Positions 3,455-32,602 of a stretch of DNA of 64,000 bases are shown piece by piece (the first letter of the stretch is position 1; every line of letters begins with the position of its first letter). The stretch is from an uncultured Elusimicrobia bacterium. Its GTDB lineage: Bacteria; Elusimicrobiota; Elusimicrobia; Elusimicrobiales; Elusimicrobiaceae. The DNA lies in assembly GCA_945913025.1 (NCBI GenBank), contig CAMECJ010000004.1:1-64000 (forward strand). The letters run 5' to 3'. The notes under the pieces were generated by a model that saw only the letters and a list, made by a program, of their open reading frames with translations, did not search any database and was not told the DNA's origin. The translations under genes were made by a program, and so were the position numbers.

Positions 3455-5461
3455 ATGAGCGATTACATACAATTAACCGCACGGGAATTAGGCCTAAAAT
3501 GGCTGGAGTTAATAGGCCGTCCTATGCCGCCAATCGGGCGTAGTTTAATTATTAAAAACCTGTTATGGTATGGACAAGCCAAGCGTGAGAAACTTTCTCC
3601 GCTTGGCTTTTTTCATGAAGTAGCCCAAGCAGCTAAGGGAGCAGACAAGCGTCCCAAAGCCACTCTTGAGATAGGCTCAAAACTAATCCGTTCCTACCAA
3701 GGGCTTAAATACGAAGTAGAAATCGTTGCCAATGGGTATCTATATGAGAATACACTCTACAAAAGCCTATCCGGTGTAGCCAAAGCCATTATGGGGAAAA
3801 ACTGGAACGGAAATGTATTCTTTGGAGTGAAAAAAATGAGTGATAAAAAAATACGTTGTGCTATCTATACCCGCAAATCAACGGAAGAAGGATTAGAACA
3901 GGAGTTTAATAGTTTACAAGCTCAACGGGAAGCGTGTGAGGCCTATATTAAGAACCAAAAGCATGAGAATTGGCAGTTATTGCCTACGGAATATGATGAC
4001 GGTGGGTATTCAGGCGGCAACATGGAAAGGCCGGCTTTAAAAAGGCTACTCCAAGATGTGCACAACGGACTTGTTGATATTATCGTTGTTTACAAGATAG
4101 ACCGCTTAACCCGCAGTCTAATGGATTTTAGCAAGATTGTAGAAGTGTTAGATAAGCATAATGCCTCGTTTGTATCTATTACCCAGCATTTTAATACCAC
4201 TACCAGTATGGGGCGGCTAACGATCAATATGTTATTATCCTTTGCCTAATTTGAGCGCGAAGTAACAGGGGAGCGTATAAGGGATAAGATAAGTGCCAGT
4301 AAAAAGAAAGGTATGTGGATGGGTGGCAAACCGCCATTGGGATATTACCGTAAAGATAAAAAAATATATCCGGATGAGGAAAAAGTAAAACTCGTTACTA
4401 CTATATTCCAAAAGTATGTTGAACTGAAAAGTACCACACTCCTAAAAGAGTGGTTAAATAAACAGGGACATAATATATCCGTAGGGAACTTGAATTGTAT
4501 CCTACGTAATAAAGCATATATTGGTTTAGTAGGGCATAAAGGAACATGGTATCCGGGGGAACACCAAGGCATAATTTCCCAAGAGTTGTTTGAGCAAGTC
4601 CAAGCAGTAATGGCAGATAATCGTATCAACCTCCAACATTATGCCCCTAGCAAAAGCCTTTTGTCGGGCAAGTTATATGACGATAAAGATAACGCCATGA
4701 ACCCCAGTTGGAGTACGGGTAGCGGCGGTAAAAAATATCGCTATTATGTCAGCCAAGCCATTATCCGCAAAGAGCCAAGCAAACTAGGTACAATCGGCAA
4801 AGTATCTCTACCGCAACTGGAAAACTTTATAGATAGTTGGTTTAAGCACTTCTTACGCGAAAAGCCAAAAATACACCCATATATCCAACAGTTTGGCGTG
4901 AGCAAACAAAAAGAAATTATCAAACGGTTGACAGAATATCCGATGACACGAGATATAGAGAAAGCTTTAATCAAATGCATTAAATTAAATCCCAACAGGA
5001 TAGAAATTACACTACATACGGAACAAGTAACCGAACTGCTCAACGCTATTTATGAAAATAGAGAAATGGCTATTCTTCAATCTGAGAAACTAAAACTTGA
5101 AACCACTTATACGGAAACATATCGTATAGGAACGGTAGCCAATGGGGCCAAGGTTATTGTGGGGCAATTTGTCCAACCTACAAAACAACCCAACAAGGAA
5201 CTCATCACAATCTTACACCAATCCTATAGTTGGCATCAAGATATATTAGACGGTAAGACTACCCAAGAAATAGCCAATAGAGAGAAAGTATGCGTGCAGT
5301 ATGTGCGCCGGATCCTTAATTTGAGTTTTTTATTGCCCAAAATCGTACGCTCTATCCTAAACGGCACGCAACCTGTCGATTGTACGCTCAAGAAGTTGAT
5401 TTGGATTGACGCCCTTGATTGGCCAAAACAAAATAAGCTATTTTTTGATAAATTTTTTTAG
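3455..5461 (+). pseudogene. DUF2924-large serine recombinase, broken by a nonsense codon (copy 1)
   Basis: Residues 1-128 match the DUF2924 domain found beside resolvases in mobile elements. The rest is a large serine recombinase: catalytic serine in YTRKSTEEG, then DDGGYSGGNMERP and VVYKIDRLTR, followed by the long recombinase and C-terminal DNA-binding parts to 5461. An in-frame TAA at 4247-4249 stands where the second copy of this module (30714-32331) has CAA, in LLSFA-Q-FERE, so the protein is truncated inside the catalytic domain. DUF2924 and recombinase are fused here because a run before ATGAGTGAT has seven A; the second copy has six A and two overlapping ORFs. The start has an AGGAGAG site. 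Probably an inactive integrase unless suppressed. Confidence 0.85.
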
Positions 5462-13700: not shown

Positions 13701-13859
13701 CGACTTCCTACCTAGTCCGGTCAGCATAAAAACAAAAGATTTTGCATAATTCGCAAAAACCTGCCAAAAAGCGCATGCTCAAAGTTGTTTATAAAAAAAT
13801 CCCCGTCGGGCGCACGGCCTAACGGGGATATATGCTATAAATTCAAAACTAAAATACGG
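13701..13859. repeat. 159-bp direct repeat, left copy
   Basis: The sequence matches 32343-32501 over its entire 159 bp with about 28 mismatches by eye and no net length change. It includes a block of perfect identity (TCAGCATAAAAACAAAAGAT) and a terminator hairpin. The right copy ends at the 3' end of tRNA-Asp, while here the sequence after ACGG is unrelated and no tRNA follows. The pair therefore looks like the two junctions of an integrated element, or like a duplicated tRNA downstream region. Confidence 0.7.
13793..13830 (-). terminator. Terminator within left 159-bp repeat
   Basis: On the minus strand ATCCCCGTT and its partner ACGGGGAT form a stem followed by a run of seven T. No tRNA or gene is left directly upstream of it on that strand except the distant Fic gene, consistent with a displaced copy of the tRNA-Asp terminator. 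Confidence 0.65.
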
Positions 13860-13893
13860 TGCTTCTAGTTTGCCTAGCACTATGCTGATTTTC

Positions 13894-14219
13894 AAACAGG
13901 CAATAAACAGGCAAAAATTGGTAGTTTTTCTTTCCAAAGCGGCAGTAAAGCGGCTAAAAGTGCCACTTTTTTTGTTTTTCCAAAGCGGTTGAAAAGCGGT
14001 TTATATGGACATTTTCTTTTTGATCGAAGCGGTAATGAAGCGGTAAAAATATTTTCAAACAGGCGACAAACAGGCGAGAATTTGCTTTTTATTTCCTGCT
14101 AAACAGGGTAGATACAGGGAAAAGTAAGGAATTTATTTTAAATTTTAAAGGTTTTTCGTACTAACACCCCATATAAATTCACCTGATTCCCTACAACACG
14201 GAACAGGGAACAAGCAGGG
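13894..14219. repeat. Array of seven paired 8-mers with 11-bp period
   Basis: Seven doublets occur, each made of two 8-mers whose starts are exactly 11 bp apart: AAACAGGC twice (13894, 13905), AAAGCGGC twice (13936, 13947), AAAGCGGT twice (13982, 13993), GAAGCGGT twice (14026, 14037), AAACAGGC twice (14057, 14068), AAACAGGG/ATACAGGG (14101, 14112) and GAACAGGG/AAGCAGGG (14201, 14212). Most doublets start 42-46 bp apart. The two members of a doublet vary together. The whole occupies the otherwise gene-free 13860-14222 interval, downstream of the Fic gene and beside the left 159-bp repeat. It could be an iteron-like protein-binding array. Confidence 0.8.
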
Positions 14220-14222
14220 AAT

Positions 14223-15272
14223 TTATTTGTTTAACTTGTATTTCCGTGCTTTCTTGGAGGGATCGGCTATCACTACAAAACCCTGCCGTACCCACTTTTG
14301 GAGCAGTTGGCGTGCCGTTCTGCCCGCGAAGTGGAACAGTTCTTCCACGTCTTTGGCTGTTATAAATTCGTTCTTTTCAAAAAGTACCAATGCTTGTTTT
14401 TGGCGCGCATCTAGCGCGTTAATGGTTTTACTTTGCTTCTTTTCGGCTCCTTGTAATTGTAAATGTTTTTGCACACTTTGGAACGAATAGAGCATCCCGG
14501 ATACAAAGAATTCAATCCAACCCGTTATATCGGCTTCGGCTCGGCCCATGTAATAGTTATGAGAAGGACCCACCGCAAGCGCATTGTAATAATCTTGCAA
14601 ATGTTGATAATAATACTCTTCCAAATTGTAAATACCCTTTAAGCAATACCCGCCTTGGTGTAAAATAAGTGTGGTCAAAATACGGGCCGTTCTGCCATTA
14701 CCATCATAGTATGGGTGTATAGTTACAAATTGGTAGTGGGCAATAGCCGCCACAATAGGGATAGGCAGCGTATGGGTACTTTCATTGATCCACTCTATAA
14801 GCCCGGTTATCATAGGACCTACGTCTTTGGCTTCCGGCGGCATATATACAATCGTACCTGTTTGGGCATCCACTACCGAGTTTTGCTCTGTGCGGTACGC
14901 GGAAGGAGTGTTTTTGCCAATAATCAGGCCATGTAAAGTTTGGATATTCGTTTCTGTAACAATATGCTTTTTAGCCAGTACAGCCACTTCATCCAAAGCA
15001 TTAAAATACCCTTTAACTTCTTTTTCATCCCGTTCCCAGCCTTGAATAGCATGGCCTTTTAATACCTCGCGCACTTCCCGCTCGGTTAAGCGATTTCCCT
15101 CAATAACGGTGGAATAGTGCGTAGTGATAATGCGGGAGGTTTCCTTAAGCCCGGCTAGTACGTGTGGTGTTAATGGCATATCCTTTACTTGCTCTTTAAT
15201 TTGGTCTATTTTATACAGCTTTTCAAGGATAGATTGGGTAATTTGATAGTTCGGATGAAATGTTATTGGCAT
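14223..15272 (-). CDS. Fic family protein (AMP-transferase type) with C-terminal HTH
   Basis: Fic enzymes usually transfer AMP from ATP to a hydroxyl side chain of a target protein. This 349-residue form carries the active-site motif HPYYDGNGRTAR (about 186-197), matching HxFx(D/E)GNGRxxR except that Phe is Tyr. It also carries an N-terminal inhibitory helix motif STVIEGN (about 54-60), which places it in the self-inhibited class whose Glu blocks ATP binding. The C-terminal 80 residues look like a winged helix (ITAKDVEELFHFAGRTARQLLQ), common in large stand-alone Fic proteins. I start at 15272 because AGGAG lies 10 nt upstream; the longer frame from 15296 contains that site. It may be an autoregulated signalling or toxin-like protein of the island. 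Confidence 0.85.
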   Translation of the reverse strand: MPITFHPNYQITQSILEKLYKIDQIKEQVKDMPLTPHVLAGLKETSRIITTHYSTVIEGNRLTEREVREVLKGHAIQGWERDEKEVKGYFNALDEVAVLAKKHIVTETNIQTLHGLIIGKNTPSAYRTEQNSVVDAQTGTIVYMPPEAKDVGPMITGLIEWINESTHTLPIPIVAAIAHYQFVTIHPYYDGNGRTARILTTLILHQGGYCLKGIYNLEEYYYQHLQDYYNALAVGPSHNYYMGRAEADITGWIEFFVSGMLYSFQSVQKHLQLQGAEKKQSKTINALDARQKQALVLFEKNEFITAKDVEELFHFAGRTARQLLQKWVRQGFVVIADPSKKARKYKLNK

Positions 15273-16055
15273 ATTATTGGCACTCCTATATGCCATTATT
15301 ATGCTATTAAATGAGTAAAATTGTCAAGTAGGCCTTATTTATTCTGTATATAATAAAAATTAATTTGTTTCTATGAGAAATATGGAAAAAGGAAGGTTAT
15401 CCGCCATATTTATTTCTGTTCTATTTTCTTTTATATCCCATTTCTTTAATGTATTGAAAATACGTTCCAAAATAGATGATTGCTTATCATTGGATGTTTG
15501 TTGATTATGAATATGTTGTTGGGCACACTGCAGTATATTTAACAACCAGTGGCAAATTGTAGAATATCCTTGAATGGGTGCCCCCACCTTTCCCTTAAGT
15601 AAATGATATACGAAATGATCTATTGTAGGGCTAAATATGTGCTCAGGGCAATAGGTGAAGGGTATTTCTTGATAAGGCCACAATAAAAGGGGGATTGGAT
15701 AAAAATATAATTTGCTTTTTTTATCAAATGGATTTAAAAAGTCTGGGATTGTATATATCATGTCTATTTGGTGGGTAAGATCTTTAAAAAATATTCCGTA
15801 AGCGGTAATACTTCTGTATTGAGTAAAAGATAAAATATTTTGAGGAAAATGCATGTTTTTTGTTAACTGGAGAAGTGGATATCTATGGAAAAGTAGATCC
15901 CATTGTTTTATATCAGCAGAAAAACTCGGGAAAGGCAAGTTTCTTTTATGGTATTTAGCTTGTAAAAAACAAATTCTTATTTGCGGAATACTGGGATTAT
16001 GTACTATGAATAAGAGATCAGCAATTTCTTTTTTTATAGGGTTACAATGGGTAAA

Positions 16056-17833: not shown

Positions 17834-18379
17834 ATGAAGTCTCTTTATATTATTTTGGATACCAGTGCGAGCATGGATCCATTTGATAATGCTAAGCAGT
17901 CTATCAAAGAATTAGTGGCGGAGGATCGATTGCAGATGCTTGGCACTATTTGCATAGTAGAGATGTCTACCCATCCCAAGGTGCTTTTTAATCTGTCTCC
18001 TTCATCAGTATCTGGTGATATACGCCAGAAAATTTTGGAGAAAATTAATCCACTGCAACCCAACGAAAAAGCAAATGTGAAAGAAACTTTTGCTTTAACA
18101 GCTAACTTATTGAAGAATCGATCTAACAATACTGATCCCACATATGTGTTGCTTATAAGCGACGGATTTACGGATAACCCAATTACCATTTGCGATTTTA
18201 GATCATATTTGGAATGTTTTCAAGAGCTTGGTCCAGAGGTAATTTTTATTTCGTTTCCGTGTAATCGTGGTTTTCATTACAAAAATCTAAGCGCTTTTGC
18301 AAAAGATAAACCGAATCACTTATTTGCTCCGGAAGGAATTTCTGACGTATTAAAATTTATTTTCAATAAGGAGGATTGA
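17834..18379 (+). CDS. vWA domain protein, TerY-like (first)
   Basis: The 181-residue protein is a single von Willebrand factor A domain. It starts with YIILDTSASMDPF, the DxSxS part of the MIDAS metal site, and has later strands with VLLISDGFTDNP (the MIDAS Asp) and VIFISFPCNRG. TerY-type vWA proteins are intracellular metal-dependent protein-binding modules encoded next to PP2C phosphatases and kinases. A weak AAGGAG site precedes the ATG. It is the first gene of the operon and ends 1 nt before the next start. Upstream (17611-17833) is AT-rich with a TTGACT box near 17731 but no convincing -10. Confidence 0.8.
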   Translation: MKSLYIILDTSASMDPFDNAKQSIKELVAEDRLQMLGTICIVEMSTHPKVLFNLSPSSVSGDIRQKILEKINPLQPNEKANVKETFALTANLLKNRSNNTDPTYVLLISDGFTDNPITICDFRSYLECFQELGPEVIFISFPCNRGFHYKNLSAFAKDKPNHLFAPEGISDVLKFIFNKED

Positions 18380-18380
18380 T

Positions 18381-19070
18381 ATGTCTTTAGGCGATTTTAC
18401 ATTGGTTCAAGAACGCAGTTTGCCAATATTTTTAATGGTAGATACCAGCAAAAGTATGACTATAAATAATAGAATGGGGCGGGTCAACGCTGCGATCCAA
18501 ACCATGTTGGATGAATTGCGTAATGATATGTCCAACGTACAAGAAAATTTAGTGACCTATCAAATGGGCATTATTGCGTTTGGTGGCGGGAAGGCCACAC
18601 TTCAACCTTTGCAAGATGTGCGGACTATAGAGTTTGCGCCTTTACATGCCGCCGGAGATACTCCATTGGGAGATGCATTAGAGCTGTTACTGGACCAAGT
18701 TAAAAAATTAGACAAGCGCGCTTATGCTCCCTGCATCGTATTGCTTAGTGATGGCAATCCATGGATACAAGGAGACCCAAATTATTTTGAAAAAGTTTGT
18801 TCAAAATTAAAAGAGGTTCAAAAGGAAAAACGGATTGCCCGCAGTCAGCTTTTTTCGGTAAAAGTAGGGCCGGTAAGTCCAAAGCAGGACTGTTTTTTGC
18901 TTGATTTTGTGCAAAAGAATACCCATCATTTTATAGATGCAGCCGAAGTAAGTAAAATCAAGGAAGCTTTTGAACTGATTACGTTATCTGTTACACAGCA
19001 AGCGGCTACGATAGCATTTCCATCCCCCAAAGAGGAAGATGCAGATGAAGAATCCATACGTATTCGGTAG
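18381..19070 (+). CDS. vWA domain protein, TerY-like (second)
   Basis: The 229-residue protein has a complete MIDAS set: DTSKSM near residue 17-22, the Thr in AGDTPLGDALELL, and the Asp in IVLLSDGNPW. It resembles TerY more closely than the first vWA protein and has a short acidic tail (PKEEDADEESIRIR). In TerY-P triads the vWA protein is thought to be the substrate or adaptor controlled by the linked kinase and phosphatase. The gene is spaced 1 nt after the first vWA gene and 6 nt before the phosphatase gene. Confidence 0.85.
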   Translation: MSLGDFTLVQERSLPIFLMVDTSKSMTINNRMGRVNAAIQTMLDELRNDMSNVQENLVTYQMGIIAFGGGKATLQPLQDVRTIEFAPLHAAGDTPLGDALELLLDQVKKLDKRAYAPCIVLLSDGNPWIQGDPNYFEKVCSKLKEVQKEKRIARSQLFSVKVGPVSPKQDCFLLDFVQKNTHHFIDAAEVSKIKEAFELITLSVTQQAATIAFPSPKEEDADEESIRIR

Positions 19071-19076
19071 ATTTCT

Positions 19077-19793
19077 ATGGGGTTTAAGTATATAGATACA
19101 AACAGAGTGTTAGGAGGAAATACAGTCATTGGGGCTTCCCATGTTTCATTACAGAAGCCTAATCAGGACAGTTTGCATTTTGGTTCATATACTAGCGGAT
19201 TTTGCTTTGTGGCAGTGGCAGATGGAGTGGGGAGTTGTTGTTATTCACAAGTGGGCTCGCGTTGTGCTGTGCGCGTCATTGGGCAACTTTGCAGACGAGG
19301 GCCACAGTGGTTAAATGATGAGAGCCAAGGAGTACGCTTACGAAATTATATTATTTCTCATTGGCAGCGTGGTATCGGGACACAGGCGGATCTATATGCT
19401 ACTACCCTTAATTTTGTCATTTTAGGTAAAAATTGTATGTGGGTAGGGCAAATAGGAGATGGACTTGTTTTGGTTAAAACGAGGCGTAAATTTGTTGTGT
19501 TGGAAGAAACAACCGTGCAGCCTCCTTATACGTTCGCATTGGGAGGTGTAGGCGTGGCAGAGAATTTCCGATTATGTGTGTTAAAGCCTTGTAAACAAAT
19601 GAGTGTATTTTTATGTTCGGATGGTATCGGCAGGGTGTTAAATCCTGCGTTGTTTCAAAAGTTTTTAGCATATATACGAAAGCTATTGTTTCGCAATCGA
19701 AGCAAAGGACAAAAAGAACTAAAAGAGTGGTTATTCTCTTTGGGAAAATATAGTCAAGACGATAAAACATTTGGGGTATTGTTATGCCGTTAG
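19077..19793 (+). CDS. PP2C-family Ser/Thr protein phosphatase
   Basis: The 238-residue protein carries the PP2C metal-binding motifs in order: KPNQDSLHF (first Asp), VAVADGVGSC (DGxG), IGDGLVLV, FLCSDGIGRVL and a closing DDKTFGVLL. These enzymes remove phosphate from Ser/Thr with two metal ions. It is short, a bare catalytic domain with no sensor. The last 10 nt overlap the kinase gene, so phosphatase and kinase are translationally coupled and probably act on the same target, presumably one of the vWA proteins or the ATPases of the operon. Confidence 0.85.
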   Translation: MGFKYIDTNRVLGGNTVIGASHVSLQKPNQDSLHFGSYTSGFCFVAVADGVGSCCYSQVGSRCAVRVIGQLCRRGPQWLNDESQGVRLRNYIISHWQRGIGTQADLYATTLNFVILGKNCMWVGQIGDGLVLVKTRRKFVVLEETTVQPPYTFALGGVGVAENFRLCVLKPCKQMSVFLCSDGIGRVLNPALFQKFLAYIRKLLFRNRSKGQKELKEWLFSLGKYSQDDKTFGVLLCR

Positions 19794-21286
19794 AAGATGC
19801 AGTGACAGAAACAGGGGAAAGATATAAATTAGACCGCGAACTGGGGAGAGGCGGGCAGGGAAATGTGTTTATCTGCTCCACGGGTGATTTGGTGAAAATT
19901 TGTAAGCACGCAACTAAGTTGAGTTTGCGTAATTTAATTCGGGAATTTCAGTTGATGCCCGAGCAAGTAAAACGATTTTTTATCGTTCCGCAACAACTGG
20001 TTAAACAAGGGTCTCAATGGGGATATTTAATGCCGTATCAGGCGAACTGTGTATTGCTGAAAGAGGCACTTGCACCATTAGAACCTCAGGAGTGGGAAAA
20101 TTGGCATATTCAACCACGGGACTTAAAACATCGTTTTTTAATTAGTTATCGTATTGCACAAGCATTAGCTGCTTTGCATGGTTATCGATATATATACCGA
20201 GATCTTTCAGCGCGCAATATTCTGATTGCTGAAGATGCAACCAATACCTTTGTTCGTATTATAGATGTGGATAATATTGCGCCCGTTGGACAATCAAAGA
20301 TTCTATTGATTACAAAGTCGTATAGTGCCCCAGAACTGATGCGCGCTGGACAACATACGTCTACTCGCTCTGTTGCCTATCATAATTATAATACGGATAA
20401 TTATTCCTTGGCTGTTATTCTTTTTAAGTTTTTGTTGGGAAAATCTCATCCATTGATAGGAGATTTGGTATCGGCTGATGACGTGGAACGCGAAGCGAAC
20501 GCCTATTTGGGAAAAGCGAGGTATATCTTGGATGATCCTAACCAGGAAAGTATTAGTAAGGAAGGCGGGCGTAAAATGAAAACATTAGCAGATGCCCTTA
20601 TTCCTTATCATTTGCAACAGTTATTTCATAAAACTTTTGTGGAAGGATTAAATCTACCAGATGAACGACCGACTGCATTGGATTTTACTTCTGCTTGCTT
20701 TGATGCGGCTAACCAAGTATATTTCTGTCCACATTGTAACTGTGGATATGTATTGCAGATACCTCAAGATATCGCTCCGTTAGGAGGTCATACTTCTCAA
20801 CAGGTGAATGCTCCTATTTCCTTATTCCCTCACAGTTGCCCGCATTGTGGTAACTCTACCCCGCGTAAAGCGTTGGTGATAGGGGACATGGTGTATCCTA
20901 AGATTGCAAGAAAACGTCCCGAAGATAAAACTGTGTACGATAATAAACCACATAAATGGTTCGGTCGTCAGTTGCGTTATGTATTCCCTATACAGAATTC
21001 AGATATCGTGTTGGCAAAAAAATATATTAAACCGGTGTCTCCTACGGAACAATTTGAAGAAGGAGTTGGTTTGTTTGTACGGGATGGAAAGGTATATTTT
21101 AATCGTGCTCAATCTGTTTTCAATTTATATTATCCAGAAATTCAAATTATTAATGGAAAACAGCGTGAGGTTTGGCATACGGTTTCACATAATGAACTCT
21201 TACCGATAAATAAAAATATTTACTTTGAACAATATACGAATAATTATAAATATGCAGAACGTTTCATGAAGGTCATAGAGGAGTAA
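19784..21286 (+). CDS. Atypical protein kinase with zinc ribbon
   Basis: The first 300 residues of this 500-residue protein form a kinase domain: glycine loop LGRGGQGNVF (about 18-27), a Lys in LVKICK, catalytic loop YRDLSARNIL (Tyr in place of the usual His) and metal-site segment RIIDVDNIAP (DVD in place of DFG). The catalytic Asp and Asn are present. Two CPHC-type pairs (FCPHCNCGY and CPHCGN, about 315-365) form a zinc ribbon, and the C-terminal 130 residues are unassigned. It is coupled to the PP2C gene upstream and lies 4 nt before the helicase gene. TerY-P kinases often carry extra C-terminal modules. Confidence 0.85.
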   Translation: MPLEDAVTETGERYKLDRELGRGGQGNVFICSTGDLVKICKHATKLSLRNLIREFQLMPEQVKRFFIVPQQLVKQGSQWGYLMPYQANCVLLKEALAPLEPQEWENWHIQPRDLKHRFLISYRIAQALAALHGYRYIYRDLSARNILIAEDATNTFVRIIDVDNIAPVGQSKILLITKSYSAPELMRAGQHTSTRSVAYHNYNTDNYSLAVILFKFLLGKSHPLIGDLVSADDVEREANAYLGKARYILDDPNQESISKEGGRKMKTLADALIPYHLQQLFHKTFVEGLNLPDERPTALDFTSACFDAANQVYFCPHCNCGYVLQIPQDIAPLGGHTSQQVNAPISLFPHSCPHCGNSTPRKALVIGDMVYPKIARKRPEDKTVYDNKPHKWFGRQLRYVFPIQNSDIVLAKKYIKPVSPTEQFEEGVGLFVRDGKVYFNRAQSVFNLYYPEIQIINGKQREVWHTVSHNELLPINKNIYFEQYTNNYKYAERFMKVIEE

Positions 21287-21290
21287 CCAT

Positions 21291-24200
21291 ATGTTGCAGA
21301 TGCAAAAAAGAGATATACAGAATTTACTTCGCGATAAAAATTGGGAAAGTTCTTTAATTATTTGCTTACAGGAAGAAGTGGATAATTTGGAAGGGAAAAT
21401 AGTTTATATTGAAAAGCTGAATGAGCAGTTTTTTCTAGTACGCAACGGTCAGGAATATCTTATTTCAACGATTGAAGCCGGAGAGTCGATAGCTGAAAGA
21501 TTTGCTGGGGATTACGAGGCTTTATGGATAGTAGACTCCAAACTGGAAGGGGCTATGTGCCGTTATCGGGTTAATTTGTCTTTTTTTGATGGAGGAATGC
21601 GGATTTCCGCTCCTAAGCAAATATATATTACGGCAGAGCGTTTAAATTGGATATTTAAACAGATATCGGAAGTGCCCCCATCAAGTTCACTAGAAGATAA
21701 ATTAAAAATTTTGCATAATCTGTTTTTTTATGATAATGTTTGTTTCTTTTATTATAGCGGTCATAGAGGTACATTATATTTAATTGGCAAAGATTGCAAA
21801 ATGCTAAAATTGGAAAGATATCGGAATGCCAATGTATGGAAAATTATGGAGATGTGTTCTTCTGGGAGTGTAGAAGGAGCGACTCCAAATGGTGAAAATG
21901 TTGTTGTTTGTCATGAAAATATTCCTTTTTTATTGGCGCAACATAACATAGAGTTGCCTATTGCTACAAATGATGAAAATAGTTTTTTGAATTTCTTAGA
22001 TGAATACGAAAGCATAGAAAGGGCTCTTTTGGAAGAACGCAAAATACAGGCTGGTTGTTTGGAATTTAACGGTGTAGAAGATATTGATTCACAAAAGCAA
22101 ATTAAATTTTTAATCAGTAATATGAGAAAAGCCGCGTTAGATGAATTTAGTGAAAATAGATCCATAGAAGTATTAAAATCAGAAACACCTTCCAATAAAC
22201 CCGCCAAAAATATATTTTTGGGGCGTATTAGCCGTTTTGAATGGAAAGATAAAGAATTATATGTAGATTATGACGATAATGAAGATAGGGCACGAGAATT
22301 TTTACAAGCGAATATTATGTCCGGGAAACTGGGAATTTGCTGGACGGGAGACGATTATATTCACAAACGCCGCGAGCGCGCATTAACCCGCTTTAGCCAA
22401 GAGAAAGACACTTCATTAAGAGAAGTGCTTTGTTTAAAGAAAAGAGGTTTGGATGTACATGCGTTAGATCATCCTATTACGGAACGCGTACAAAGTAAAT
22501 TCCCCGATATTTCCTTTAATGACCTCCAACGTAAGGCGGTAGCAGCGGCGGTGGGTACGGATGATATCGCTGTTATTTGGGGTCCTCCCGGTACCGGGAA
22601 AACAACAGTTATTAAAGCCATTATAGAACGCTTTTTTGAATATAATAATACCCGTTTGGAGCACAAAGAAAAACCAGTATTGATTACCAGTTATCAAAAT
22701 GATGCGGTAGACAATGTGATTGTTTCGCGCGGAATAGAAATCCCTGCTTATCGTATTGGAAAAACGGGTACCAATTTATTTAGCGCATGGCAAGATGCCA
22801 TAAAAGAGCAAATGGAGAAACAATTAGGTGTGAAACCAGACTATAAACCTTGGATAGATAAGTTTGATTCTGCGTGCCGCAGACCGCAACATGAAAAAAT
22901 CAATTTATTAAAGCAATTTATGGAAAGTCCTCTTTTTGGCGAGTTATTGCAGGAATTACAGCATAAGATTCGGCAGCTTGCAAATAATGAACCTAATATC
23001 GCTAGCAGTGTATTGGAATCTCAACGTTTAACACCTCTTGCTTTCGCTGATGACGGACGAGCTCGTTTAAATGATTTGCTACGCTTGTTAATGGGGGGCG
23101 GAATCCTATTAACCAACGATTTTCTAGCGGATGTAACGGATGAAATTGGTACTGAAACTCCAATAACAAAAGATAAATTTTTGCTGTGGCTAAATTCACT
23201 TGCCGAAAAACTGGAAGATAAGGACGAGATTGCGTATGAAACGTACCGCAAGATAGTGTTAAATTTGTTGGTTAATTTAGAACAGGAAGATAAAGAGAAA
23301 CAAGTAGATGATTGCTTAAAAGAAATTCGACGCATTTTGTGGCAACAAGGTATTGACTATCCTAAGAGAGCGGCATTAGCTTTGGTACAATACGATTTTG
23401 TTTCTCAAATAGAAAATATTGAATCTGCAAAAGTACTTATTAACACTTATACAAATACCATGGCAGGAACTTGCCAAAAGGTGGGGATGCAGAGCCGCAA
23501 TTCCGAAGAAGTTTTACCTACTAGTTATCAAATGGTTATTGTAGACGAAACTTCTCGTGCTAATGTATTGGATTTACTGATTCCGCTGTCAATGGGTAAA
23601 AAAGTAATCTTAGTGGGCGATTTCTTACAGTTACCGCCTTTGGTAGATGATGAAGTAAAGAGTATGCTTAGACAAAGATTCCCAGAACGAAAAGAATTGA
23701 TAGATAAAACATTTTTCCAGCGGTTGTATGAATTCCTAAAACAGCATGCGCCTGAAAAATGTGTTGCTCTTACTGCACAGCGGCGCATGCATCCGGATAT
23801 AGGAAATTTTGCCAGTGAGCAATTCTATAAACCGGAAGGCCTTGAGTTATCTTCCGATGAAGTAGACTTGGGAAAAAAGCGTCATGGCTTAACGATGTCC
23901 AACGGCGAAGCTATGTTCAAAGGCCAAGCTGTGGCGTGGGTAAATATTCCCTTTGCAAGCGGAGCCGAAACTAATCAAGTTGACCAAAATGCTCAGTCCG
24001 AGAATCAAAAGTCAAACCGTTCATTATATCGTCAGATTGAGATAGAGCAAATCCGATCATGGGTAGATTCTATACGTATCCAAAACCCTAATAAAGAAAT
24101 CGGAATTATTACTTTTTACAAAAAACAAGCCGAACTGTTAAAAGAGCGGTTTAAAGATTTGGAAGGACTGGAACAACTCAAAATAGGTACGGTTGATGCT

Positions 24201-24443
24201 TTCCAAGGCAAGGAATTTGATGTTGTATTCCTGTCATGTGTGCGTAGTAATGAACAGCAGAATGTGGGATTTTTAAAAGATAGAGCGCGTTTATGCGTGG
24301 CATTTACACGTGCCAAACAATTGATGGTTGTGGTGGGGGATAAAGATACACTATGTAACGAGCATGCTCAGCCCCAAACGGCTCCTTATATTTTCCACCA
24401 ATTCTTAACATTGTGTCAAAGCAAGGGGAGTTACCATGAGTGA
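21291..24443 (+). CDS. Superfamily 1 (Upf1/DNA2-like) helicase
   Basis: The 1050-residue protein has a 420-residue N-terminal region without an assigned domain. A full SF1 motor follows: Walker A GPPGTGKTT (about 430), motif Ia TSYQNDAVDNV, Walker B VIVDETSRANVLD (about 748), motif III VGDFLQLPP (about 775), AQRRMHP (about 828), IGIITFYKKQ, GTVDAFQGKEFD (about 967) and CVAFTRAK (about 1003). About 300 residues separate motifs I and II, holding a large 1B/1C-type insertion as in Upf1-like enzymes. Such helicases unwind RNA or DNA 5' to 3'. No nuclease motif is visible. The stop overlaps the next start by 8 nt. Confidence 0.85.
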   Translation: MLQMQKRDIQNLLRDKNWESSLIICLQEEVDNLEGKIVYIEKLNEQFFLVRNGQEYLISTIEAGESIAERFAGDYEALWIVDSKLEGAMCRYRVNLSFFDGGMRISAPKQIYITAERLNWIFKQISEVPPSSSLEDKLKILHNLFFYDNVCFFYYSGHRGTLYLIGKDCKMLKLERYRNANVWKIMEMCSSGSVEGATPNGENVVVCHENIPFLLAQHNIELPIATNDENSFLNFLDEYESIERALLEERKIQAGCLEFNGVEDIDSQKQIKFLISNMRKAALDEFSENRSIEVLKSETPSNKPAKNIFLGRISRFEWKDKELYVDYDDNEDRAREFLQANIMSGKLGICWTGDDYIHKRRERALTRFSQEKDTSLREVLCLKKRGLDVHALDHPITERVQSKFPDISFNDLQRKAVAAAVGTDDIAVIWGPPGTGKTTVIKAIIERFFEYNNTRLEHKEKPVLITSYQNDAVDNVIVSRGIEIPAYRIGKTGTNLFSAWQDAIKEQMEKQLGVKPDYKPWIDKFDSACRRPQHEKINLLKQFMESPLFGELLQELQHKIRQLANNEPNIASSVLESQRLTPLAFADDGRARLNDLLRLLMGGGILLTNDFLADVTDEIGTETPITKDKFLLWLNSLAEKLEDKDEIAYETYRKIVLNLLVNLEQEDKEKQVDDCLKEIRRILWQQGIDYPKRAALALVQYDFVSQIENIESAKVLINTYTNTMAGTCQKVGMQSRNSEEVLPTSYQMVIVDETSRANVLDLLIPLSMGKKVILVGDFLQLPPLVDDEVKSMLRQRFPERKELIDKTFFQRLYEFLKQHAPEKCVALTAQRRMHPDIGNFASEQFYKPEGLELSSDEVDLGKKRHGLTMSNGEAMFKGQAVAWVNIPFASGAETNQVDQNAQSENQKSNRSLYRQIEIEQIRSWVDSIRIQNPNKEIGIITFYKKQAELLKERFKDLEGLEQLKIGTVDAFQGKEFDVVFLSCVRSNEQQNVGFLKDRARLCVAFTRAKQLMVVVGDKDTLCNEHAQPQTAPYIFHQFLTLCQSKGSYHE

Positions 24444-26052
24444 GTATAAGTTTTATTGGCCGGTAGAATTACTGAGTGTTATGGTGCAGGAATATAATGA
24501 AATTTCTGATCCATTACAAATAGCAGTATGTCGTTTGTTGAAGTTGAATACTGCCAATGAATTGCCGGAAACACTGCCAGATACAATGTCAGATGACACT
24601 AAACGGAAACGCTATGAGAAGCTGGGTAAATATATTTGTGTATCCGGCGAAGTAATTGAAAATGTAATATCTAAGCTACAACAGGAAAAATGGATTGATC
24701 AAAAAGAACAAATTACAGGAAAGGGTGAACAAATGCTCAGCCAACAGCAAGATAAATTGTACCAGCCGGAAGGGCATATATATAATATGTTCTTAAATTT
24801 ATTGGATAATACCATTTTCCCCTGGAGTGCCGTTCCTAAAAGATATCCCTATTTTAAGACAACAAAAAAGGGAAATAAAAATTCAGATTCAGGAAACAGA
24901 AATAAGGAACTGCTAAAGATGTTGCCGGGCGTTTTCAAAAAATCTTTGAAAAATAATTGGATGGATATGCCTCTCCAACAAAATACATATCGCGACCCGG
25001 GGCTTCCTACCGAGCAAAAAGAGCCGAACAATCCTAATCTCCCTATAAAATGTGAGATTATTTCCGGACGTAAGGGATATTTGGAGTGTTCGCTTAAACA
25101 AAGCCAAGATGTAGAAATAGTATTGGATTTCCCTTTGACAGGGGTTAATTTGCGTCAATGTGTGCAAAGTTTGTCTAGCGCTTTTCGGGCGACCGGCGAT
25201 AGACCTTATATATTGCTGGGTTGTGATGAAAAACCGTTAAATGGCGAACTAAAGAGTGCATTTGAAAAATTGACCACCCCTACGTCTAACTTAATCCGTC
25301 AGAAATATCGGCAGGGCACCGCTACAGAATTTGAAAAATGGATTTTTCAAAATGGTTTTACTCCTGTTTGGGATTTGCAGGAAAAAATCCTTGGATTTGA
25401 TCCGGCAGACCCTTTTAATTTGCGAAGTATATTTGATAAGACACGCGACAAGTTGCGTTCGGATATATGGATATCGTTGGAATCCAGCTTGGGTATGTTG
25501 CTAAATGCTTACATTAGTAAAGCTGATGTAAGGAAAACTCAACAAGAATTTGAAACCAGAACTGAATTTTCAGGTAATAATAAACAGGAACTCATTAAAT
25601 TATTTAAGTCAATGGGGAATAAATTTAATTTGTGGGATGGTAATAATTTATTTGCAAATGAAATCAGGCAATTACAAAATAAATTTTATGATGCTGTTAA
25701 AAACAATTTGTATGATTGCTTGGTGCCGGGTAAGAAGGGAGAATTCCGCTGGGGAGCTTCTAACAAGCCCCGAATCCTGTTTTTGACAGTAAATGCTTAT
25801 TTTCAGTATGCTAAAACGCCTTTTGGGCAATTATTGGATACATCGGCCGCAATTAAAAGCATGCGAAATGTTGAATTTATGGCATGTATTGACGATATTG
25901 GGAATAAACGTAGTAATGCTAACGCGGCTCATACGAAGGGTGCAAGATTGGACAATGTAAAGCCCGAAGAATTTAAGAAAGTTTTTGAACAATACAAAAA
26001 AACCGTACAATTATTATTAAAATTTATGTCTAAAGAATGGAGGAAGAATTAA
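24436..26052 (+). CDS. Unknown protein linked to helicase and AAA+ genes
   Basis: The 538-residue protein belongs to no family I recognise. It is soluble, with a helical N-terminus (about 1-110, including a possible winged-helix segment, VIENVISKLQQEKWI), a middle with strands (EIISGRKGYLECSLKQSQDV, about 205-225) and a helical, lysine-rich C-terminus. No CxxC pairs, Walker motifs or clear nuclease signature are visible. It overlaps the helicase gene by 8 nt and precedes the AAA+ gene by 1 nt, so its product is presumably made in fixed ratio with both. It is the best candidate for an unrecognised effector or adaptor of the operon. Confidence 0.7.
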   Translation: MSEYKFYWPVELLSVMVQEYNEISDPLQIAVCRLLKLNTANELPETLPDTMSDDTKRKRYEKLGKYICVSGEVIENVISKLQQEKWIDQKEQITGKGEQMLSQQQDKLYQPEGHIYNMFLNLLDNTIFPWSAVPKRYPYFKTTKKGNKNSDSGNRNKELLKMLPGVFKKSLKNNWMDMPLQQNTYRDPGLPTEQKEPNNPNLPIKCEIISGRKGYLECSLKQSQDVEIVLDFPLTGVNLRQCVQSLSSAFRATGDRPYILLGCDEKPLNGELKSAFEKLTTPTSNLIRQKYRQGTATEFEKWIFQNGFTPVWDLQEKILGFDPADPFNLRSIFDKTRDKLRSDIWISLESSLGMLLNAYISKADVRKTQQEFETRTEFSGNNKQELIKLFKSMGNKFNLWDGNNLFANEIRQLQNKFYDAVKNNLYDCLVPGKKGEFRWGASNKPRILFLTVNAYFQYAKTPFGQLLDTSAAIKSMRNVEFMACIDDIGNKRSNANAAHTKGARLDNVKPEEFKKVFEQYKKTVQLLLKFMSKEWRKN

Positions 26053-26053
26053 T

Positions 26054-28321
26054 ATGGGAAAGAAACATAAGCAGAAAAATAAGAATAACCAATCCCCAGT
26101 CAAGGCAACTCCAGAAAAACAACAACAGCAAAATTTAATCAATAGCTTGCGTGACAAAATTAAGGGAGAAATTGTAGAAGGAGCGACGGAGACTGTTGAT
26201 GAGAATTTAGAAAAACTGTTGGGAGTTGTATTAAAATACTCCATTAAAAATTTAATTCCTGTGTTGGAAAAGAATAATCCGGAGACTATTGCTGGGGAAT
26301 TGTCTAATCGTTTGCAGAATGAAAATGCGACTCCCGAAGATTTGTTAAGGTGTGGCCAGTTGAAAGCGTATATCGTGGATCAAACGCAACAAGAGGTGAA
26401 CACAAAACAACAACAAAGGGATGCAATACAAGGAGAAATTGAAACTCTTGAGGGACAAAAAACACGACTAAATACAGAGGTTGGCACACTTACCGCAGAA
26501 AAGAAAGAGTTAGAAAAAACAAAGGGTGAATTACAAAAGAAAAAAGAAGAATTAGAAAATGAAATTCAAGGATTAGAACCCAAAAAACAAGAATTGGCAC
26601 AGCGTGAGCAAAGTGTTAAAGAAAAAGAAGCAGATGTTAACCGACGCTTGGATGCTAATACAACGGCAGCAAAGTCTATTCAAGTTTTCCGTAAGTTGAT
26701 TACCAAAGATATGAACCAAGCGGCTCGTGCTGAAAGGAATGCACGTTTGGCAGAACGTTATCGTAGTAAATGCCAAGATTTAACTAAACAGGTGGAGGTC
26801 CTTAATCAGGAAAGAGAATTGTATACAAATGCCGACAAAGTGATTGAAGCGTATCAAGTGCAAGAAAAAGGAAGACTGCTGGATAGTACGCTCGACAAAA
26901 TTAAACATTTAGAAAGCGAAATAGAGACCCAAAGAAAAACTTTAACTACACAAAAAGATCAGGAAGTGGCTACTCTGAAGCAGGGCATCGAAGAATTAGA
27001 GCGTTTAAATGATGCTTTACAAGTACAACTGCAACATCTACGTGCTACGCAGCAAATAAACCAAGAGCAAGAGGAAAAAATTTCCTTGTTAGAACAAAAA
27101 GCCAATTATTTCAAACAAATAAATGATCAAATGAAAGCTTGGATAGAAAAAGGTAATAAGGCCGAATGCCCGGCCTTGTCTGCCCTAGATAGCACGATGC
27201 CTGCTAAAGTAGACATTTATAACGCTACGATTGGCCGTTCACTACAACACATAAATAGTTTGAGAGCTCTAGCGGATTATTTGTATGCTTTTTGTGTTAA
27301 TCCGCCGAAGAAAGATTTTGATAATAATGAACTTAATCTTGAGCCCTTGTATTATAAAAGAGATGATATCTGCGCTTTTATTGCCGGTTTGGGTATTGGT
27401 AAACTAACTATTTTACAAGGTACCAGTGGGGTAGGTAAGAGTAGCTTGCCCAAAAGAATTGGGCGCGCGTTATATTTGCCGGAATACACCAAAGATGCCT
27501 ATCCTAATGTGATTGCGGTAGGTTCTTCATGGCGTGAACGTGACGAAATGTTCGGTTACTACAACGATTTTAGTAAAAAATTCAAAGCTAAAGAATTTAC
27601 TTGTGCGGTGTACAAAGCTAATTTCTATCCGGATAGACCTTATTTTATCGTATTGGATGAAATGAACTTATCCAGAGTGGAGTATTACTTCGCCGATATT
27701 TTGTCCGGTATAGATACAGAAAAAGGCATTCCTGTTCGCTTGTTAGATAGTGAGGAAATGCAAGAAAATTGGCCTAAGTATTTAAAAAATGGGGAATTGA
27801 CCATTCCGGAAAATGTTTATTTTATCGGTACGGCTAATATTGATTCGTCCACCATGGATATTACCGATAAGGTATATGACCGCGCCAATGTGCTGTCTTT
27901 CCATGAGATTGCCCCGGAACCTGCCAATAAACCGGAACCACCGAAAATTCAGACGATATCCTTTTCCGGTTTACAAAACATGTTTAATAACATTGGCAGT
28001 TTGGCTGAACTGCCTGAAATATATGTCCAAACAAAAGAAACTTTGGAAGAATTGGACATTTTTGTAGGGTATCGCATGGAAAAACAATTAAAGAAGTTTA
28101 TCCCTATTTTTGCGGCATGCGGGGGAGAAGCGAAAAACGCCGAAGATATTTTTATTGTTAACAAAATCTTACGCAAATTGGAAGGTAAAGAAGGAAAAGA
28201 AAAAGTGAAGGAGTGGTTCCGAGAACTGGAAAGGCTTTACAGAGAAGGGAAATATTGGCGCTGCGAAAAGTTTCTAAAGGAATGGAATGATGAGCAGTTC
28301 CCAAAAGAAGACAATAACTAA
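26054..28321 (+). CDS. McrB-like AAA+ ATPase with long coiled coil
   Basis: The 755-residue protein has a basic N-terminus, a helical part, and then a very long coiled coil (about residues 110-365, heptads rich in E, K, Q and L). The C-terminal half is an AAA+ domain of the McrB/MoxR branch: Walker A QGTSGVGKSS (about 455), IAVGSSWRERDEMFG, Walker B IVLDEMNLSRVEYYF (about 532), sensor GTANIDSST (about 591) and arginine-finger region DKVYDRANVL. McrB-type motors form rings that translocate on DNA with a partner nuclease; no McrC partner is present here. The coiled coil could give a long reach between complexes. A GAGGAAG site precedes the ATG. Confidence 0.85.
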   Translation: MGKKHKQKNKNNQSPVKATPEKQQQQNLINSLRDKIKGEIVEGATETVDENLEKLLGVVLKYSIKNLIPVLEKNNPETIAGELSNRLQNENATPEDLLRCGQLKAYIVDQTQQEVNTKQQQRDAIQGEIETLEGQKTRLNTEVGTLTAEKKELEKTKGELQKKKEELENEIQGLEPKKQELAQREQSVKEKEADVNRRLDANTTAAKSIQVFRKLITKDMNQAARAERNARLAERYRSKCQDLTKQVEVLNQERELYTNADKVIEAYQVQEKGRLLDSTLDKIKHLESEIETQRKTLTTQKDQEVATLKQGIEELERLNDALQVQLQHLRATQQINQEQEEKISLLEQKANYFKQINDQMKAWIEKGNKAECPALSALDSTMPAKVDIYNATIGRSLQHINSLRALADYLYAFCVNPPKKDFDNNELNLEPLYYKRDDICAFIAGLGIGKLTILQGTSGVGKSSLPKRIGRALYLPEYTKDAYPNVIAVGSSWRERDEMFGYYNDFSKKFKAKEFTCAVYKANFYPDRPYFIVLDEMNLSRVEYYFADILSGIDTEKGIPVRLLDSEEMQENWPKYLKNGELTIPENVYFIGTANIDSSTMDITDKVYDRANVLSFHEIAPEPANKPEPPKIQTISFSGLQNMFNNIGSLAELPEIYVQTKETLEELDIFVGYRMEKQLKKFIPIFAACGGEAKNAEDIFIVNKILRKLEGKEGKEKVKEWFRELERLYREGKYWRCEKFLKEWNDEQFPKEDNN

Positions 28322-28339
28322 ACGGAGTGATATCATTAT

Positions 28340-30253
28340 ATGAATTGTTGGGATGATTATCATGAACTATATAATAGATACCGTCGGTTAGAGTCAGCAA
28401 ATTTGTCCTTTGCGCATCTGGCGGAAATTTGGCGTTGGAATCCAGAGACACAAACGCCGAAAGTGTTTCTGTACCGCATGGAGAGAAACGAGGACGATAG
28501 AAAAAACCAAACCAACGCAGTTAATAAAATGTTATGTTATATTAAAGATGTGCCACCTGTATTTAAGAATCCGCAAACCCATTTAAGGCAAGAGGAAGTT
28601 GTGCGCGTAATGGAAAAAGTCACGCGTATTAACAAGCGTACTATCCGGTATCTGGCGGCGCATAGCGAACATTGGAAAACATCTTTCCCGGATGTTTATC
28701 CTATGCGTTTACTGACACCGGTTTGGGAAGATGATTTAGCACTGTACGAAAATGTGGCAGCAGTTACATTAATTAAATATTTAGACCCTGCCATTCGCCA
28801 ACAAGATATTGATATAGCAGGCGATTTATTGGCTACTTGGAACGAAAGTGACCAGACCCCAGGGGCTTTGCCAGGGCGTATTTGGGCCAGTTATGTTGAA
28901 ATTTATGATAGATCTCTCAAAAGCAATCACTTACAGGATATAAAAGATAAATTAGAGAAATTACGGGCACATATCAATACATGCAAGCATAGTAAATTAT
29001 TCCGTTCCTTATACAACGCGCCTGCCATAGTCGGTGCATTAAAACCCACTAACATTTTCCTAAAAAATCGTTACTATCATAAAGTATATTTGCTATGGAA
29101 AATTAAAGAAAGATTACGTAAAAACGCAAAGGCAGATAGTTATCAACCGATTCAGAACCCCAAATATGAAGAAGGTTTTAGAATTCATGCCAAATTGCTA
29201 CTGCTGTTTGCTTTAAAAACATTTGGTTTTACATCGCGGGATGAAAACAGCCCTGTTCTTGTGAAAGACAGTTTGCAAAAAATGGTATATAAGCATGGCA
29301 ATTGGCTGATTGAATTAAGTGAGCCGGATGGGAATCCGTCGGTTATCAAATGTCGGTTTATGTTATATCAAACACATACGATTGTATTACCACAGGGATG
29401 GGTGTTGGCTTTTGATGAGGATGAACAAGCTCAATTTCAGAAGCAATTTCATATCGCCCAAATAATTGATAATCGTGAATTAGTGTTTGAAGCGGCTTTA
29501 AATCCTGAAGAATTACAAAAATTCAGACAGTTTTTGTTAGACATATGGCAGATAGATAATCGGGACAATGCAGGCAAAAAGCAAGTCAATCAGATTAAGG
29601 ATGAAGTAGCTAAGTTCCCCAATGCTCGTATTTTGACAATTTATTTTGATGTTTCCTTTGACCCTATGCCTCAAGACAAAAATGGAATCCCAGCGTGGTT
29701 TGCCAAATATCAAGACAAGATACAAGGGGAAGACATATGGGTAAAACTATTGCCTAATAAATTATGGGATTTCCCGCAAGATTATGGAGATAAAATGTTT
29801 TTATTTTCTTCTTTTCCTGCCCCCCATACGAAGCAACGTTTTCATGTGATACCGGTCAGCTTAGATGATATACACTCGTATAGACGTATCATGAAAGTCT
29901 TATTGCCTTTTTTATTGGAGTTAGACGATAAACATTGCCCTTATTGCGCTCAAGCTTTAGAGGCCAATGGACATTGTTATAACTGTCATATTGTAATCAG
30001 TAAAACGCAGTGCGGGCAGTGTCATAACGAGCGGTATTCTTCTTCGGCTACTGATCCCAAGTACCCGCCTCTTAACTTGGACAGTAGCATTCGGGAAAAC
30101 AAAAAATACCAATTACAGTTATTGGAAGAAGAATTGAAAACAGGATTTTTAAATGTAATGCCCGTCAAAGGAGGTGAGGTTGTATGTCCTCATTGTTTGA
30201 GTGAGGAAATCAAGACATTACAAGAACAATATTTAGAAAAATCGCAAACATGA
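28340..30253 (+). CDS. Zinc-ribbon protein, last gene of the operon
   Basis: The 637-residue protein has no known family assignment over residues 1-520. Its C-terminal part has several Cys pairs: CPYC (about 533), CYNC, CGQC and CPHC near the end, forming probably two or three zinc ribbons. The kinase of the same operon also carries a CPHC-type ribbon, which may indicate a common partner or nucleic acid. A GGAG lies about 12 nt before the ATG. The product ends the operon, and the second recombinase module follows after 80 bp. Probably a DNA- or RNA-associated subunit; role inferred from position. Confidence 0.65.
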   Translation: MNCWDDYHELYNRYRRLESANLSFAHLAEIWRWNPETQTPKVFLYRMERNEDDRKNQTNAVNKMLCYIKDVPPVFKNPQTHLRQEEVVRVMEKVTRINKRTIRYLAAHSEHWKTSFPDVYPMRLLTPVWEDDLALYENVAAVTLIKYLDPAIRQQDIDIAGDLLATWNESDQTPGALPGRIWASYVEIYDRSLKSNHLQDIKDKLEKLRAHINTCKHSKLFRSLYNAPAIVGALKPTNIFLKNRYYHKVYLLWKIKERLRKNAKADSYQPIQNPKYEEGFRIHAKLLLLFALKTFGFTSRDENSPVLVKDSLQKMVYKHGNWLIELSEPDGNPSVIKCRFMLYQTHTIVLPQGWVLAFDEDEQAQFQKQFHIAQIIDNRELVFEAALNPEELQKFRQFLLDIWQIDNRDNAGKKQVNQIKDEVAKFPNARILTIYFDVSFDPMPQDKNGIPAWFAKYQDKIQGEDIWVKLLPNKLWDFPQDYGDKMFLFSSFPAPHTKQRFHVIPVSLDDIHSYRRIMKVLLPFLLELDDKHCPYCAQALEANGHCYNCHIVISKTQCGQCHNERYSSSATDPKYPPLNLDSSIRENKKYQLQLLEEELKTGFLNVMPVKGGEVVCPHCLSEEIKTLQEQYLEKSQT

Positions 30254-30307: not shown

Positions 30308-30333
30308 AAGCGTGAATGTTTATAGGAGAGAAT

Positions 30334-30717
30334 ATGCAAAACTATACACATTTAACCACGCGGAAATTAGAGTTAAAATGGCTAGAATTAATCGGCCGGC
30401 CTATACCGCCAATCGGGCGAAGTTTAGTTATTAAATACCTGTTATGGTATGAACAAGCCAAGCGTGAGAAGATTTCTCCACTTGGCTTTTTTCATAAAGT
30501 GGCCCAAGCCGCTAAAACCGCTGATAAACGCCCCAAAGCTACATTGGAAGTTGGCTCTAAAATGGTCCGGTCCTATCAAGGTACAAAATATGAAGTGGAA
30601 ATTATCCCACAGGGCTATTTGTATAGGAACAAAACCTATAAAAGTCTATCCGGTGTAGCTAAAGCTATTACAGGTAAGAGTTGGAACGGTAATGTATTCT
30701 TTGGAGTGAAAAAATGA
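30334..30717 (+). CDS. DUF2924 domain protein
   Basis: This 127-residue protein is the stand-alone form of the N-terminal domain fused in the copy at 3455. It carries the DUF2924 features WLELIGRPIPPIGRS, a helix with LLWYEQAKRE, and a C-terminal segment YKSLSGVAKAITGKSWNG that resembles the small modules found next to resolvases. It probably binds DNA or the recombinase. I start at 30334, 5-6 nt after AGGAGAG; the frame from 30316 contains that site. Its TGA overlaps the recombinase ATG (ATGA), so the two are translationally coupled. Confidence 0.75.
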   Translation: MQNYTHLTTRKLELKWLELIGRPIPPIGRSLVIKYLLWYEQAKREKISPLGFFHKVAQAAKTADKRPKATLEVGSKMVRSYQGTKYEVEIIPQGYLYRNKTYKSLSGVAKAITGKSWNGNVFFGVKK

Positions 30718-32331
30718 GTGATAAGAAAATACCTTGTGCTATCTATACACGCAAATCAACCGAAGAAGGATTAGAACAAGAGTTTAACAGTTTACAAGCC
30801 CAACGGGAAGCCTGTGAAGCATACATTAAGAGCCAAAAGCACGAGAATTGGCAGTTATTACCTACCGAATATGATGATGGCGGATATTCGGGTGGCAATA
30901 TGGAACGCCCAGCCCTAAAACGGCTTTTATCTGATATTAAATCCGGCCTTGTTGATATTATTGTTGTCTATAAAATAGATCGCTTAACCCGTTGTTTAAT
31001 GGACTTTAGCAAAATTGTGGAGATATTAGACAAGAATAATGCCTCGTTTGTATCTATCACCCAGCATTTTAATACCACCACCAGTATGGGGCGGCTCACA
31101 TTAAATATGCTACTCTCATTTGCTCAATTTGAGCGAGAGGTAACAGGGGAACGCATAAGGGATAAGATTAGCGCGAGTAAGAAAAAAGGAATGTGGATGG
31201 GTGGCAAACCGCCACTAGGGTATTACCGTAAGGATAAGAAGATATACCCGGATGAAGAAAAACTACCGTTACTACTCGCCATTTTTGAAAAGTATATTGA
31301 ACTCAAAAGCACCACGCTTCTAAAAGAGTGGCTCCAACAGCAAGGACATAATATATCCGTAGGGAACTTAAACTGTATTTTGCGCAATAAAGCCTATATT
31401 GGCTTAGTAGGCCATAAAGGTACTTGGTATCAGGGAAGAACACCAAGGCATAATTCCAACCGAACTATTTGAGCAGGTACAAAATGTCATGGCGGACAAC
31501 CGTATTAATCGTCAGCATTATGACCCAAAGAAAAGCCTTTTATCCGGCAAACTATATGATGATCAAGGAAATGCTATGAGTTCCAGTTGGAGCACGGGTT
31601 GCAGTGGAAAAACATACCGCTATTATGTAAGCCAAGCCATTATCCGCAAAGAGCCAAGTAAACTAGGCAAAATCGGAAAAGTATCCCTACCGCAACTGGA
31701 AAACTTTATAGATAGTTGGTTTGAAAGATTTCTACATAACAAGACAAAACTTTATCAATATATTCAGCGCTTTGAAGTATCTAAGCAAAAGAAATTACTA
31801 AAACTCCTGTCGTCTTACATAATAACCCGAGACATAGAAAAAACATTAATTAAGCGTGTTCAATTAAACCCCAACGAAGTAGAAATAACCTTGCATGCGG
31901 AACAAGTAGTAGAACTATTCAACGCTATTTATGAAAACCGGGAAATGTGCTTACTCAAATCCGAAGAATTGAAACAAGAACGCACCTACACGGAGCCGTA
32001 TCATATCGGTACAATAGCCAACGGAGAAAAGATAATTGTAGGGCAGTTTATAGAGCCGAAGAAACATCCTAATACTGAACTTATCAAAATCTTAAATCAG
32101 GCCTACACTTGGCACCAAAACGTAATCAACGGTGCAAGTACGCAAGATATAGCCAAACGGGATAAGGTATGCGTGCAATATGTCCGCCGGATCCTCAATT
32201 TGAGTTTTTTATCCCCTAAGATCATAAGGGCTATCCTAAACGCTACCCAACCGGCTGATTGCACACTCAAAAAATTGCTCTCTATCAAATCTTCAAATTG
32301 GCAAGAACAAGAGCACATCTTCTATAAATAA
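30714..32331 (+). pseudogene. Large serine recombinase with a single-base frameshift (copy 2)
   Basis: The N-terminal catalytic domain is intact: YTRKSTEEG with the nucleophilic Ser, GGNMERPALKRLL, VVYKIDRLTR and LLSFAQFERE. Near 31436 an extra A in CAGGGAAGAACACC shifts the frame; copy 1 reads GTWYPGEHQGII where this copy reads GTWYQGRTPRH and stops at 31472. Deleting one A restores YQGEHQGIIPTELFEQVQ and joins the C-terminal ORF that runs to 32331. Large serine recombinases catalyse site-specific integration and excision through the N-terminal Ser. This copy lies at the right end of the island next to the 159-bp repeat and tRNA-Asp, as expected for an integrase, but it is likely inactive. 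Confidence 0.85.
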
Positions 32332-32501: not shown

Positions 32502-32573
32502 AGCCGACGAGATTCGAACTCGCGGTCTCTGCCTTGACAGGGCAGCGTGTTAACCAGGCTACACCACGGCTCC
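32499..32573 (-). tRNA. tRNA-Asp (anticodon GTC)
   Basis: The minus strand folds as a tRNA: acceptor GGAGCCG/CGGCTCC, D arm with AGCCTGGTTAAC, anticodon stem CTGCC/GGCAG around loop CTGTCAA with anticodon GTC, and a T arm with GTTCGAATC. CCA is not encoded. A promoter-like pair lies upstream and a terminator downstream, and the island ends at its 3' end. Confidence 0.95.
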
Positions 32574-32602
32574 ATTCACTTCTCAAATTCTTTCGTACTT
32601 AT

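Follow-up and report, generated by a model that had tools for sequence, protein, structure and literature searches.

Paired 11-bp repeats inside the distal end of a tRNA-Asp island in an uncultured Elusimicrobia bacterium

What is a row of paired 8-bp words, matched within each pair and different from one pair to the next, doing behind a fic gene in a 64,000-nucleotide stretch of Elusimicrobia DNA (the window)? A sequence-only reading of positions 13894–14219 had described seven such doublets with an exact 11-bp period, and had proposed binding sites of the iteron or integrase-arm kind. We asked whether the array is real, what it belongs to, and what it might bind.

The doublet array

The array is real: of its seven 8-mer pairs, all at an 11-bp offset, five are exact and two nearly so. 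The exact pairs start at positions 13894, 13936, 13982, 14026, and 14057:

13894–13912, minus strand: terminal doublet GCCTGTTT-ATT-GCCTGTTT, defined from the sequence and related tails
13936–13954, minus strand: doublet GCCGCTTT-ACT-GCCGCTTT
13982–14000, minus strand: doublet ACCGCTTT-TCA-ACCGCTTT
14026–14044, minus strand: doublet ACCGCTTC-ATT-ACCGCTTC
14057–14075, minus strand: doublet GCCTGTTT-GTC-GCCTGTTT

The other two doublets of the seven described earlier, AAACAGGG/ATACAGGG at 14101 and ACAGGGAA/GCAGGGAA at 14203, contain one mismatch each. In 2000 dinucleotide shuffles, exact non-overlapping pairs at an 11-bp offset numbered 0.016 on average (maximum 1), against five in the array; across the offsets from 4 to 60, none exceeded two pairs. 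An exact-pair scan of the whole window revealed no comparable 330-bp stretch elsewhere.

The halves of a doublet match each other while differing across doublets, as had been claimed: the seven pairs contain 2 mismatches, compared to 18.9 when partners are permuted (P ~0.0003). Within the CCGC class alone (20 related types) the covariation was weaker, at 18 versus 26.8 mismatches (P ~0.006), which indicates that common ancestry accounts for part of the agreement between halves; the match within doublets may partly reflect recent 11-bp duplication. Start-to-start spacings of the doublets are 42, 46, 44, 31, 44, and 102 bp. The earlier estimate of four helical turns thus fits most of them (42–46 bp), but one spacing corresponds to three turns, the final one is aperiodic, and phasing from doublet to doublet is not strict. 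The array is non-coding, with an 11-bp period and units of 31–46 bp that vary between genomes. A decayed coding repeat is ruled out by these variable unit lengths and by a period that is not a multiple of three, and a CRISPR array, which the earlier reading had also set aside, by words that differ between doublets and by spacings of 31–46 and 102 bp.

The island and its ends

The array proved to belong to an 18.6-kb island that has integrated at the 3' end of a tRNA-Asp gene, and it makes up the inner portion of the island's distal end. The features that delimit the island are as follows:

13701–13854, minus strand: "head" of the next, tandem element directly past the crossover, with a terminator-like hairpin at 13799–13829
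13857–13887, minus strand: island distal end ("tail" core) CAGCATAGTGCTAGGCAAACTAGAAGCACCG, defined by the tail model and the empty site
14223–15296, minus strand: fic, island cargo adjoining the array (Pfam Fic, 6e-18)
30316–30717, plus strand: DUF2924 gene, present in every island compared
30714–32331, plus strand: large serine recombinase, in two open frames (30714–31472 and 31489–32331)
32343–32496, minus strand: head, the recombinase-side island end, abutting the tRNA gene
32498–32574, minus strand: tRNA-Asp(GTC), the integration target, 3' end ...GGCTCCG

In the direction of the minus strand, the array lies downstream of fic, past its stop codon. Arrays of differing length likewise come after near-identical fic genes or fic remnants in related genomes and at a second copy in this genome; these arrays end in one conserved block, CAGCATAGTGCTAGNNAAACTA...CNCCG, beyond which the sequences diverge. 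In the genus, the tail often has no fic ahead of it. The conserved end block, the divergent flank, and the frequent lack of fic together imply that the array region is the end of something mobile. A model of the tail matches in 43 of 66 genus genomes, the tails running either into the native tRNA flank or into the head of another island. The head carries a terminator-like hairpin, and in the window lies directly against the tRNA-Asp 3' end, at 32498. Island-free genomes show the empty site, tRNA-Asp...CTCCG/CCATTTA...ACCCGCC, whose flank is identical to the flank beyond the tail in other genomes. From this match the crossover is located to CNCCG, within CACCG (13857–13861) in the window. Tandem tail–head junctions were also seen in related genomes and, as read from these sequences, show repeated accretion at the integration site; they would also fit an active recombinase and a circular form of the island.

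The filled site in the window (32490–32500) has TTT after the tRNA gene, versus CCA at empty sites, so that the encoded CCA end is seemingly lost on insertion. At one related locus (L064, 4528–9362), three consecutive tail–head junctions on the same strand delimit small units that carry pilin-like or other genes and no recombinase, and that resemble gene cassettes.

Thirteen islands with this end have just two genes in common, the large serine recombinase and DUF2924. The recombinase copy in the window is broken into two frames; a relative's (L065) matches PF00239 (6e-39) and PF07508 (2e-10). Since fic is present in 7 of the 13 islands, and arrays occur without fic in related genomes, a Fic-specific element is ruled out: the suggestion that the pattern marks island ends or Fic genes was borne out for the ends. 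The predicted recurrence at homologous positions was likewise found, at many further loci, between the island genes and the conserved crossover core. A scan of the genome with the pattern proposed earlier returned seven matches, one of which (C15) marks a genuine second array, located next to a disrupted copy of fic. Two others (C1 and C14), located in paired genes of one protein family, were read as coding chance matches.

The island's cargo includes, in a row at 17834–30253, von Willebrand-type, phosphatase-like, kinase-like, helicase-like, and ATPase-like genes (translations read by eye), perhaps a defence system. The window contains another serine recombinase, from the same clade as the island's, at 3836–5446, with one in-frame TAA and preceded by a DUF2924 stretch (3467–3832); no head, tail, or B motif (see below) was found near it (3467–5446).

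A composite site and its local expansion

The two doublets nearest fic, the sixth and the seventh, are parts of larger motifs, B and A, respectively:

14090–14123, minus strand: motif B, with the sixth doublet as its direct part (model R3; found in other phyla)
14186–14221, minus strand: motif A, TTCCCTG-N4-TTCCCTG-N11-AGGGAA, with the seventh doublet as its direct part (sequence; same layout elsewhere)

Motif B combines an 11-bp direct repeat of TTCCCTG-type words with a palindromic CAGG(G)AA. The order is A, then ~65–70 bp, then B (TTCCCTGTATNTTCCCTG-N5-CAGGGAA) and, shortly afterwards, the crossover CNCCG; the TTCCCTG/CAGGGAA words of A and B recur at 11–12 and 21–22 bp. Islands with distant recombinases (60–75% identity) show no doublet expansion, yet keep A and B near the crossover, motif A taking the form TTCCCTG-N10/11-AGGGAA in their tails. 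The composite A + B site is older than the array, which is a local expansion of it.

A generic search for 11-bp pairs in the best 80 recombinase loci was noisy, returning mostly the genus's own arrays plus one further locus (L302), and it was the latter match that led to motif B. The B model, built from this genus only, matches at 59 places in the genus. Thirty-two of these lie within 20 kb of the recombinase or DUF2924, against ~4% expected (binomial P ~3e-29, uncorrected for the model's training sequences and for contig breaks). Beyond the genus, in 37 genomes from other lineages with recombinase relatives, the model matched 17 and had no match in the remaining 20. Among 18 regions fetched from other lineages, seven contain a recombinase or DUF2924 sequence within 16 kb, and the layout of A, ~70 bp, B, and core recurs in such regions. 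In an island of Cyanobacteria bacterium UBA9971 (Melainabacteria-type), tRNA-Ser lies at the recombinase end, A + B at the other, and TCCGTA at both. At four loci (L302, L317, L363, and L370), the site is found ~230–370 bp past the recombinase stop codon, and at another (L369) past a recombinase fragment, as would be expected in a tandem junction or a circle. Judged by these matches, A + B accompanies this island recombinase across several bacterial phyla. None of the five motif strings tried occurred in the literature searched, and the site is apparently undescribed.

A copy of A + B is also present in a 5-kb IMG/VR contig (L332, 139–330), ~1.5–3 kb ahead of a ParB/methylase-like gene and terminase-like genes (genes read by eye). 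A BLAST search with this copy gave no phage match and one weak plasmid match.

Between B and the crossover, the tails listed carry from none or one up to seven extra 11-bp doublets; doublet units were found in 23 of 66 genus genomes. As judged from the tails, these doublets are a lineage-specific expansion, in the course of which the words would have drifted from CCCTGTTT to GCCTGTTT and RCCGCTTT. Some cassettes with a similar core carry no doublets at all which, together with the variable doublet number, indicates that the extra doublets are not essential. It could be supposed that only A and B are functional, and that the extra doublets are passive, selfish duplications without a function. 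The differing number of doublets between islands, halves that resemble each other as recent duplicates would, and the fact that other recombinase clades manage with A and B alone all favor this explanation. We nevertheless consider it unlikely, because the doublet adjoining the core varies least, being kept in ~25 tails, mostly 26–27 or 33–34 bp away, and because central word positions are conserved while the 3-bp and longer spacers vary.

Possible function of the array

We infer that the array probably consists of iterated protein-binding sites in an attachment-site arm, which would act in integration or excision. The island would be inserted at the tRNA-Asp 3' end by the DUF2924-linked large serine recombinase, the array being an expanded arm of the attachment site. 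An element-encoded protein would bind each doublet as a pair on one face of the DNA, and the loading of several molecules beside the crossover would help the recombinase to assemble at the correct end or with the correct directionality. The most likely binder is DUF2924, which is the first candidate because it is constant, is encoded next to the recombinase, and shows a partial match to the RAMA DNA-binding domain (PMC11342252); the recombinase itself would be the second. A structure model of DUF2924 was weak (pLDDT 62) and had no significant PDB match, and mentions of DUF2924 in the literature searched were confined to three Wolbachia papers. In the circular form of the island, the array would lie beside the joined site, flanked by the 3' ends of the fic and recombinase genes, a position unsuited to a promoter role.

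Like the large serine recombinase elements phiC31, Bxb1, and SCC-type, the island has a recombinase with Resolvase and Recombinase domains, encoded at one end, and a single insertion site, with both junctions and the empty site precisely defined; tandem accretion, too, is known from SCC-type elements. It differs from them in the iterated arm inside one end, the tRNA 3'-end target, and the constant DUF2924 partner. Short direct repeats ~10–11 bp apart near the crossover are typical of the arm sites of lambda-type attP, but the recombinase here belongs to the serine class and is not a tyrosine integrase. To our knowledge, arm sites are not known for the serine class, nor is a bivalent core/arm integrase, which makes "integrase arm site" an analogy when applied to the array. 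In PMC3642061, serine integrases are described as typically using short att sites without host factors, so that an arm array would not be expected, which argues against the arm reading. The site described here departs from a short att site without accessory repeats in that A and B are conserved beside the crossover. The island resembles the tRNA islands of the Islander database in carrying a second copy of the tRNA 3' end at its far end; such islands are, according to PMC4383910, usually made by tyrosine integrases, unlike the present one. Integron gene cassettes are likewise added head to tail at a single site, and some of them lack a recombinase gene of their own, whereas here a serine recombinase is involved, and whole 5–30 kb islands as well as small units accrete.

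A broader proposal, which we put forward only tentatively, is that widespread tRNA-inserting serine recombinases use an elaborate attP, whose arm-type A + B site may be recognized by DUF2924 as a RAMA-domain accessory or directionality protein. Arm control is usually tied to lambda-type tyrosine integrases. If the proposal is true, such control would extend to the attP of serine recombinases, and A + B would have been expanded into arrays in gut and rumen Elusimicrobia. DUF2924 is found beside serine recombinases and, as far as we know, its role has never been tested; A + B would offer it a precise, testable candidate DNA site. Dependence of some serine integrases on accessory arm sites would bear on their directionality and on their use as tools, and A + B may serve to locate the ends of such islands in unannotated genomes.

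Binding sites at an island end remain the part of the earlier iteron or integrase-arm suggestion that fits best. Plasmid iterons find no support, since the 13 islands share only the recombinase and DUF2924, and no initiator. A related possibility is that the excised island, as a circle, would start its replication or transfer at this site, the TTCCCTG words being iterons or nicking/relaxase sites. Their spacing of 21–22 bp in motif A of several lineages resembles that of iterons, and the IMG/VR copy with terminase-like genes shows a wider use by mobile elements; however, the 13 islands have no replication or relaxase gene in common and the site stays close to the crossover, which makes an origin improbable. 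Very improbable, finally, is a regulatory or termination region in the fic transcript, with the doublets acting in 3' untranslated RNA: the array does have the fic stop codon on one side and a terminator-like hairpin on the other, but there are arrays without fic, the RNA fold of the array is unremarkable (z = -0.8), the hairpin is part of the next element's head, and A and B are kept beside the core in phyla with other cargo.

Elsewhere in the window (61322–61789), a 213-bp unit is repeated in tandem 2.2 times, beginning within the 3' end of a tRNA-Val gene. Related units come after tRNA-Asp in several genus genomes and terminate in a copy of the tRNA 3' end; by its sequence, the unit is evidently a second, very small tRNA-end element.
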